From the NCBI RefSeq assembly GCF_000423365.1, contig NZ_AUHV01000004.1, forward strand, positions 186,001-250,000: a stretch of 64,000 bases of DNA, given 5' to 3'. This document shows positions 24,396-25,951 of the stretch, one piece after another. Every line of letters begins with the position of its first letter. Position 1 is the first letter of the stretch. The notes beneath the pieces are model-generated. The model was not told the origin of the DNA. It did no database searches and saw nothing but the letters and a program-made list of their open reading frames with translations. Both the position numbers and the translations under genes were made by a program. The DNA comes from Maritalea myrionectae DSM 19524 (GTDB lineage: Bacteria; Pseudomonadota; Alphaproteobacteria; Rhizobiales; Devosiaceae).

Positions 24396-24410
24396 GAACA
24401 AATGTTGAAC
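24396..24410 (-). promoter_or_regulatory. LexA (SOS) box, promoter-proximal
   Basis: On the minus strand this reads GTTC-N7-GTTC, the alphaproteobacterial LexA operator, 22 bp before the lexA start codon. All eight specified bases match. Confidence 0.8.
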
Positions 24411-24420
24411 AACAATAACC

Positions 24421-24435
24421 GTTCTTTGTATGTTC
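24421..24435 (+). promoter_or_regulatory. Second LexA (SOS) box, opposite orientation
   Basis: Plus-strand GTTC-N7-GTTC with all eight bases matching, 10 bp from the first box and facing the other way. Together the two could give tight autoregulation of lexA. The right-hand leader promoter is about 140 bp away and probably not controlled by it. Confidence 0.75.
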
Positions 24436-24522: not shown

Positions 24523-24538
24523 GTTGCAATAATGCAAC
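24523..24538. promoter_or_regulatory. Palindrome GTTGCA-ATAA-TGCAAC, candidate operator
   Basis: Perfect 6-bp inverted repeat with a 4-base centre, 37 bp upstream of the predicted -35 of the DUF1127 leader. Size and symmetry fit a dimeric repressor or activator site. It shares the GCAAC/GTTGC half-site, in inverted order, with the palindrome at the sitA promoter. The regulator is not identified. Confidence 0.4.
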
Positions 24539-24575
24539 GGCGGTGGATTTGATGTACAAAGTGTCGCACCCTCTA

Positions 24576-24604
24576 TTGCCATTTTGAAAGCATCGGCGTA
24601 TGAG
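24576..24604 (+). promoter_or_regulatory. Predicted sigma-70 promoter for the leader/DUF1127 transcript
   Basis: TTGCCA (24576-24581), 17-bp spacer, TATGAG (24599-24604). The -35 matches five of six consensus bases and the -10 four of six. It would start RNA near 24611, giving a leader of about 300 nt before the DUF1127 gene. Confidence 0.45.
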
Positions 24605-24663
24605 CGATGCTGTAACTTCTAACTGAGGCGCCATCCCGGTGCCGCAACTGCAAAGGGGATATT

Positions 24664-24723
24664 ATGAGCCATAATCATACGCTAATCAGCACCCCGGCGC
24701 TAAATACGCCGGTTTCCAAGTAA
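24664..24723 (+). CDS. Putative 19-aa leader peptide
   Basis: A short ORF encoding MSHNHTLISTPALNTPVSK, with a purine-rich AGGGGA site (24654-24659) four bases before the ATG. Its 3' half overlaps a perfect 6-bp hairpin (CCGGCG 24694-24699 with CGCCGG 24707-24712), and its stop codon lies directly before a series of alternative hairpins. That placement is what is expected of an uORF whose translation controls downstream RNA folding. There is no run of one amino acid as in classical biosynthetic attenuators (three Thr, two His and two Asn are scattered). Not recognised as any described leader. Confidence 0.45.
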   Translation: MSHNHTLISTPALNTPVSK

Positions 24724-24726
24724 CCG

Positions 24727-24812
24727 ACGTCCTTTGAGGACGTTCAGACTGCGTCCTCGCTGTCATTCGATCAACACCAACCCTTCTTAGGCGCTTTTTT
24801 GCGTCCGAGGAC
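24727..24812 (+). ncRNA. Leader RNA with mutually exclusive hairpins (candidate attenuator/riboregulator)
   Basis: Four complementary segments occur in order. A, ACGTCCT (24727-24733), pairs with B, AGGACGT (24737-24743). B as GAGGACG (24736-24742) can instead pair with CGTCCTC (24752-24758). C, GTCCTCG (24753-24759), pairs with D, CGAGGAC (24806-24812). All are perfect 7-bp matches, and A-B plus C-D excludes B-C. Inside C-D there is a smaller hairpin with a T6 loop (24791-24805). A further stem (CGTGCG 24824-24829 with CGCACG 24846-24851) follows before the DUF1127 gene. No obvious T-run terminator follows C-D, so control could act on translation, Rho access or RNA stability. Confidence 0.5.
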
Positions 24813-24914
24813 TCATCTTTAATCGTGCGTTTTCGCGCGGGTTTCCGCACGCTTTCGCGCATCTTTTAACTCCAATTTTGGGGAACGAACGCGGCTGCGC
24901 GTTTGTCAGGAAAC

Positions 24915-25082
24915 ATGAAAAAACAACACGCTTTAACACTCAACTTTTTCGAGCGATTAGGATTGGCTTGGCGCCAAATCTTCAACCGGCGTCAAGTCGT
25001 CAGCCGTGCGGACGCAAAAAGGGTTCGCCGGTGCAATGTTGAAGATTTGAGCGCGCATATCCGAAAAGATATCGGGCTGTAA
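24915..25082 (+). CDS. DUF1127-type small protein
   Basis: 55-aa basic protein starting MKKQHALTLNFFERLG and ending 'LSAHIRKDIGL', the conserved C-terminal pattern of DUF1127 (YjiS-like) proteins. DUF1127 proteins are arginine-rich, often found in alphaproteobacteria; some have been linked to RNA binding and to phosphate or carbon metabolism (from memory). The ribosome-binding site CAGGAAA precedes the ATG. About 300 nt of structured leader lies upstream and a UUCG-loop terminator follows, so it appears to be a monocistronic, post-transcriptionally controlled gene. Confidence 0.75.
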   Translation: MKKQHALTLNFFERLGLAWRQIFNRRQVVSRADAKRVRRCNVEDLSAHIRKDIGL

Positions 25083-25087
25083 TCGTA

Positions 25088-25107
25088 AAGGGGGCTTCGG
25101 CCCCCTT
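25088..25107. terminator. Bidirectional terminator with UUCG tetraloop
   Basis: AAGGGGGC (25088-25095) and GCCCCCTT (25100-25107) form a perfect 8-bp stem closed by C(TTCG)G, an exceptionally stable RNA loop. It serves the DUF1127 gene on the plus strand and overlaps the sitD stop on the minus strand. The downstream T-tract is short (TTATT) on the plus strand; on the minus strand TTTACG follows. Confidence 0.75.
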
Positions 25108-25951
25108 ATTCGTTGGTGATCTGGCGCGCCCGTTGGGCTGATGGGGAGAAGAAAAAGGCCAAGATGAACAGGGCCGTCATGACCAGCACGATGGTGGGCG
25201 CAGGTGCGCTATCCAATTGGAAGCTTAAAAAGACCCCGAAGAAAGCGCTGAATATGGCAACCAAAGTGGCGATGATCAGCATCGGGCCGAGCTTGCGGGT
25301 GAGCAGATAGGCGATTGCGCCTGGCGCAATCAGAATTGCGATGGCCAGAATAATGCCGACAGCTTTTAGCGCGGCGACAACAATCAGCGAGATGGCAGCC
25401 AACAAGCCATAATGCAACCAGCGCACAGGCAGGCCGATCGCAGCCGCGTGCTGCGGATCAAACACATAGAGCTTTAGATCACGCCAACGTGCGATCACCA
25501 AGATGGTCAAGGTCAGCGCAATGATGCCGGTTTCCATCAGGTCAGCATTGCTGGTGCCCAACATGTTGCCGAACAGGATGTGGTCGAGATGCACATCCGT
25601 TTCTATTTTTGTGTATAGCACCAGGCCCAAGGCAAACATGCCGGAGAATACGACACCCATAACGGTATCTTCTTTTATGCGGCTGTTTTCCTTGAGATAA
25701 CCTGTGCCAAGCGCACAAATCATACCCGCCACAAAGGCGCCGATGGCCAATGGAATGGCCAAAATATAGGCCAAAACAATGCCCGGCAGGACGCCATGGG
25801 AAATGGCGTCACCCATCAATGACCAGCCCTTGAGCACCAAGAAGCAGGATAGCAACGCTGCGGGAATCGCCACCAAGATCGAGATGACAAAGGCGCGCTG
25901 CATAAACGGAAATTGGAAAGCCATCATGCTCGTGTCAAACCATTCCATCAT
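25106..25951 (-). CDS. sitD: Manganese/iron ABC transporter permease SitD
   Basis: Inner-membrane permease of a cluster 9 (ZnuB/SitC/MntB family) metal importer, 281 aa, about eight membrane spans. Conserved 'LKGWSLMGDAISHGVLPGI' near residues 40-60 is the family loop motif. Second permease of the operon. Its ATG overlaps the sitC stop by 4 bp. Two different permeases plus the residues seen in SitA favour a SitABCD manganese/iron system over ZnuABC zinc uptake. Confidence 0.88.
   Translation of the reverse strand: MMEWFDTSMMAFQFPFMQRAFVISILVAIPAALLSCFLVLKGWSLMGDAISHGVLPGIVLAYILAIPLAIGAFVAGMICALGTGYLKENSRIKEDTVMGVVFSGMFALGLVLYTKIETDVHLDHILFGNMLGTSNADLMETGIIALTLTILVIARWRDLKLYVFDPQHAAAIGLPVRWLHYGLLAAISLIVVAALKAVGIILAIAILIAPGAIAYLLTRKLGPMLIIATLVAIFSAFFGVFLSFQLDSAPAPTIVLVMTALFILAFFFSPSAQRARQITNE

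Follow-up and report, generated by a model that had tools for sequence, protein, structure and literature searches.

A uORF-containing leader of a DUF1127-like gene, probably a translation-dependent attenuator

The most tetracycline-induced gene of the soil bacterium Sinorhizobium meliloti is a DUF1127 gene, duf1127_1, which is also induced by chloramphenicol (Kothe et al. 2025, PMC12218461). It is preceded by a 279-nt leader carrying a 29-codon uORF (sORF26) that starts 249 nt before the gene, and the switch senses stalled protein synthesis. Translation of the uORF is required to keep the gene off, through uORF-dependent attenuation that is probably effected by Rho. Termination needs both the C-rich uORF codons 3–10 and a C-rich element of 45 nt that follows the uORF; codons 3–10 are masked when the Shine-Dalgarno sequence pairs with them. 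The necessary element behind the uORF contains 38% C and 18% G. Regulation was unaffected when the two gene-proximal regions were deleted, the RNA rather than the peptide sequence of the uORF was what mattered, and a uORF-containing small RNA was visible on Northern blots (PMC12218461). The leader analysed here had been put forward as a candidate undescribed one, a description that does not hold for its kind, since uORF-dependent attenuation of a DUF1127 gene is already published for S. meliloti.

The window (the whole stretch analysed, 64,000 nucleotides of Maritalea myrionectae DSM 19524) contains this leader region at 24576–24914, between lexA and a metal-ABC permease gene and directly before a small gene. 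The following features were located.

24576..24604, + strand: candidate promoter TTGCCA-N17-TATGAG, from sequence (TTGCCA 24576–24581, TATGAG 24599–24604)
24627..24643, + strand: 5′ hairpin GGCGCC/GGUGCC, whose end lies some 20 nt upstream of the uORF ATG
24652..24659, + strand: Shine-Dalgarno sequence AAAGGGGA of the uORF, conserved in the alignment
24664..24723, + strand: uORF of 19 codons, MSHNHTLISTPALNTPVSK and a stop codon, read from sequence; same length and ungapped in L002 and L003
24694..24712, + strand: hairpin CCGGCG/CGCCGG in the 3′ half of the uORF, with a 7-nt loop in all six leaders
24711..24725, + strand: alternative 4-bp hairpin GGUU/AACC containing the uORF stop codon (RNAalifold, three leaders)
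24726..24744, + strand: A-B stem GACGUCCU/AGGACGUU, directly past the uORF stop
24747..24764, + strand: self-contained hairpin at segment C; UCCU loop
24765..24788, + strand: candidate rut element, a mostly single-stranded stretch rich in C and poor in G
24784..24811, + strand: local hairpin UUCUUaGGCGC/GCGUCcGAGGA, which uses segment D
24870..24906, + strand: two hairpins (24870–24883; 24885–24893/24898–24906) directly before the gene start, pairing among three leaders
24915..25082, + strand: DUF1127-like gene P0001, 55 aa

The small gene was found in five other genomes of the genus, beside the same metal-ABC permease gene; lexA adjoins it where the contig reaches, and in one genome (G004) lexA was not seen beside it. 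With few genomes in the genus, the comparative set comprises six leaders: that of the window, L002, L003 and L008–L010. At the same locus, L002 and L003 align with the window leader throughout. Between the window and these two close congeners, coding DNA is 80–83% identical in lexA, 78–80% in the permease gene and 75–80% in the small gene, while the four-fold sites are 39–52% identical in lexA and the permease gene and 56–71% in the small gene, where such sites are few. Because the leader is 81–84% identical, against 39–52% at four-fold sites, it is on this comparison real and conserved as RNA. In L008–L010 the sequence of the leader has changed and its architecture is preserved, with a uORF preceded by a Shine-Dalgarno sequence, a Pro-Val end and a near-equal distance to the gene.

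The promoter predicted by the sequence-only reading is present, and its hexamer spacing is preserved (17–18 nt in five congeners), though the match to consensus is weak. The block GTCGCACCCT (24561–24575), directly upstream of the −35, does not vary among three congeners, occurs in part in L010 and may be a promoter element. Further upstream, the palindrome TTGCAATAATGCAA (24524–24537) recurs slightly altered at this position in L002 and L003, and partially in L008–L010; it is possibly a regulator site. Two SOS-box-like sites at 24396–24410 and 24421–24435 (GAAC-N7-GAAC, GTTC-N7-GTTC), upstream of lexA and about 150 nt from the leader promoter, probably belong to lexA itself. At the other end, a G+C-rich hairpin, AAGGGGGCTTCGGCCCCCTT (25086–25109), separates the small gene from the permease gene, which run towards each other, and is probably a terminator common to both; it weakly resembles the end of a Brucella sRNA.

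The small gene had been named a DUF1127 gene. Its resemblance to DUF1127, confined to the C-terminal stretch LSAHIRKDIGL, stands, while membership of the Pfam family (PF06568, cut-off 23.3 bits) does not: P0001 gave zero matches at E ≤ 1 and its nearest relative scored 15.9 bits. The best of the five congeners reached E = 0.0015.

Searches with the leader returned little beyond the genus. Rfam at gathering and relaxed thresholds gave chance matches only and no known family, in agreement with the earlier reading, which recognised in it neither a known riboswitch nor the speF leader. Among the loci read in a lexA-linked search, the small gene lay beside lexA only in this genus; a pattern search of 347 genomes of the order for the invariant block GTTTAACACTAGCGCAACC found it in only one congener, and a covariance model (R1) matched strongly only in three congeners. 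The best other R1 matches checked (L184–L187, one of them, in G140, with E = 8e-4) fall within long reading frames. Also rejected were a DNA match (L004) that is short, due to chance and located within a succinate dehydrogenase gene, and 11-codon frames upstream of some other DUF1127 genes, which run antisense within a divergent regulator gene. Some 100 further DUF1127 genes from the order were checked, and none showed a convincing uORF leader.

The 19-codon reading frame proposed earlier was found at 24664–24723, with its own ribosome-binding site closely upstream. Its start, stop and length are ungapped in the three aligned leaders, where the 5′ UTR has gaps of 15–18 nt, and it has 14–15 codons at the same locus in L008–L010. 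Thus every one of the six leaders contains a uORF of 14–19 codons with a good Shine-Dalgarno sequence and Pro-Val near the stop, and the distance from uORF start to small gene is 251–258 nt throughout (251 in the window). In the window, GGGG of the Shine-Dalgarno sequence (24655–24658) is complementary to CCCC within the uORF (24692–24695), a stem of only 4 bp that is outcompeted by the uORF hairpin in a short fold. The L008 counterpart pairs as GCCaAGGAG:CUCCUGGC (AGGAG with CUCCU), and L009 does the same with a G-U pair. As in the S. meliloti-type leaders described below, pairing between the Shine-Dalgarno sequence and the uORF is possible in all six leaders, over 4–8 bp; it exceeds most codon-order shuffles in each, alone with p of 0.05–0.15, values that, like all the shuffles used here, treat related sequences as independent.

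Several further structures are shared. The leader folds with a z of −2.9. The 5′ hairpin pairs in all six leaders, with four of its six pairs changed on both sides (hand-chosen arms). The perfect 6-bp hairpin noted earlier in the 3′ half of the uORF is present, with two pairs changed on both sides; its arms overlap both the CCCC partner of the Shine-Dalgarno sequence and the GGUU of the hairpin at 24711–24725, which is invariant among three leaders and therefore uninformative. Past the stop codon, the A-B stem keeps 8/8 pairs in three leaders, three of them varying by G-U exchange, and the segment C hairpin is invariant there except for one unpaired base, with counterparts built of different stems in L008–L010. 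The local hairpin at 24784–24811 keeps 10/10 pairs in three leaders, of which six vary consistently on one side only. Across the 5′, uORF and segment C hairpins of the six leaders, both sides changed at 10 of 17 pairs, a count inflated because the arms were hand-picked for pairing and joined with an artificial loop; the near-fixed distances of the hairpins from the uORF start are a stronger argument than such counts. Between these structures, the stretch at 24765–24788 is mostly unpaired in predicted folds. The first 60 nt after the uORF contain 37% C and 20% G in the window (30–37% C and 18–23% G in the six leaders), and the excess of C over G in the uORF plus these 60 nt ranks only among the highest 4% across the window, a moderate enrichment. 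An intrinsic terminator, a terminator-like 3′ end and a U-run were sought in the leader and none was found. The comparative evidence supports the general proposal of a uORF-coupled riboregulatory leader that has no intrinsic terminator and works through Rho or translational control.

A profile search with the small gene led to L212 and, from there, to a gene resembling S. meliloti duf1127_1 in 28 genomes that belong to another family, probably Rhizobiaceae. In 23 of these a uORF of 29–35 codons was found, most starting 225–262 nt upstream of the gene (L225–L246, L248). We take these leaders to be of the S. meliloti type from the length and spacing of their uORFs and from a segment that resembles the published GCGATTGTTCGCATTTTT. 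In 21 of the 23 the Shine-Dalgarno sequence pairs with the uORF when folded, and most have a conserved uORF stretch (Arg-Leu-Ser-Gly-Gly codons or similar) complementary to the Shine-Dalgarno sequence GGAGGCG; covariation in this stem gives no information, because its Shine-Dalgarno side is nearly constant. Comparison of the 23 leaders supports the published model in more than a single species.

How the window leader resembles this type was judged against the published description of the S. meliloti leader and a nucleotide profile built from the 23 related leaders. Because that profile (nhmmer) did not match the six leaders here, the likeness rests on architecture. Both leaders carry a uORF ahead of a DUF1127 gene (DUF1127-like in the window), are of similar size (279 nt and about 300 nt), start the uORF at almost the same distance from the gene (249 and 251 nt), lack an intrinsic terminator and follow the uORF with an element rich in C and poor in G. 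The S. meliloti pairing of the Shine-Dalgarno sequence with uORF codons has a possible counterpart in the window. They differ in uORF length (29 against 19 codons), in gene length (about 78 aa in the nearest S. meliloti-type relatives found, against 55) and in genomic neighbours, and the window's clade, unlike S. meliloti, has an extra hairpin before the Shine-Dalgarno sequence and extra hairpins after the uORF. The proteins of the two types align only over their C-terminal 20 residues. We therefore suggest that the window leader works like that of duf1127_1, a likeness proposed for its working and not for its descent.

Taken together, the data favour a model in which the window contains a uORF-controlled attenuator leader, with premature termination before the DUF1127-like gene probably depending on uORF translation and probably brought about by Rho. 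S. meliloti-type attenuation is the best model because likenesses that are moderate singly combine with the spacing and the kind of gene. With normal initiation and completion of the uORF by ribosomes, C-rich RNA within the uORF and beyond it would be free, Rho would load and transcription would stop before the gene. If uORF initiation or early elongation were impaired, a stalled ribosome would cover the C-rich RNA; with no ribosome on the uORF, the Shine-Dalgarno sequence would pair with its C-rich codons. In either case RNA polymerase would read on and the gene would be expressed, such that the leader would report translation stress or ribosome shortage and not one metabolite. While the leader, the uORF and several hairpins are conserved in the sequences compared, we infer the mechanism as a whole, its dependence on the uORF being the firmer part and Rho the weaker.

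The sequence-only reading had proposed an attenuator in which segments A (ACGTCCT, 24727–24733), B (GAGGACGT, 24736–24743), C (CGTCCTCG, 24752–24759) and D (CGAGGAC, 24806–24812) pair as A-B, B-C and C-D in mutually exclusive steps selected by ribosome progress. The segments are present, and while three perfect 7-mer pairs are ordinary (shuffle mean 1.5; 114/500 shuffles reach three), the chained set arose in 1/500 shuffles, and A-B and B-C are preserved in three leaders, A-B through one-sided rather than compensatory changes. C-D, however, is lost in L002 and L003: each has a G to A substitution that disrupts a different pair of the stem. In the local hairpin at 24784–24811, which all three leaders retain, both substitutions replace U-G by U-A and strengthen the pairing. 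Moreover, C makes its own hairpin in relatives and the U-run is absent. The four-step switch is thus quite unlikely; a reduced switch from A-B and B-C may operate. In the alignment, the failure of C-D is the clearest correction to that reading, which overlooked the features that look most functional, namely the Shine-Dalgarno/uORF pairing, the 5′ hairpin and the C-rich stretch after the uORF.

Control could instead act on translation, with the hairpins before the gene start governing ribosome entry and being remodelled by uORF stalling, as in E. coli toiL-topAI (PMC12121999), and Rho secondary. These hairpins are found in three leaders and 24871–24914 is the best conserved leader block (91–93% identity), yet AGGA at 24908–24911 lies beside and not within a predicted hairpin, no alternative pairing between them and the uORF region was found, and the S. 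meliloti deletions nearest the gene had no effect (PMC12218461); we consider such control unlikely. That the leader serves chiefly as precursor to a trans-acting small RNA, for example through the UCCU loop of segment C, would suit the near invariance of that segment, a conservation equal to that of neighbouring coding DNA and the small RNA detected in S. meliloti (PMC12218461). The lack of a Rfam match, of a terminator-like 3′ end and of any leader match outside the genus in the searches made renders it highly unlikely. Sensing of a specific ligand by the uORF peptide, with stalling near its Pro-Val end, is scarcely credible: Pro-Val is indeed near the stop in 6/6 uORFs, but its codons lie within a conserved hairpin arm, which explains them, the remaining peptide varies freely, and in S. 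meliloti the peptide sequence does not matter (PMC12218461).

If attenuation of the S. meliloti type does operate here, a mechanism so far described for a single gene in a single species extends to a second family with only the layout in common. The six leaders and the 23 of S. meliloti type form a comparative set for finding the essential parts of the switch, and uORF-controlled DUF1127 genes are set apart from the ordinary short ones, which are without such leaders. The findings suggest that DUF1127-like proteins are connected with translation stress. More tentatively, uORF-DUF1127 leaders might be a widespread sensor of translation status in many genera of Hyphomicrobiales, kept by architecture and not by sequence, with the longer DUF1127-like proteins as general effectors of translation stress.

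Among other known systems, speF and further Rfam leaders likewise have a uORF or structured leader, with no match at any useful score. The toiL-topAI system of E. coli (PMC12121999) resembles the proposed leader in having a uORF that reports translation stress and in involving Rho; it differs in acting on the topAI ribosome-binding site, in that Rho ends transcription inside topAI, and in its unrelated gene and sequence. In the E. coli tnaC leader and the Bordetella bp2923 copper uORF (per PMC12218461), a specific signal stalls the ribosome at the uORF end and the genes are unrelated, but there too translation of the uORF decides the access of Rho.
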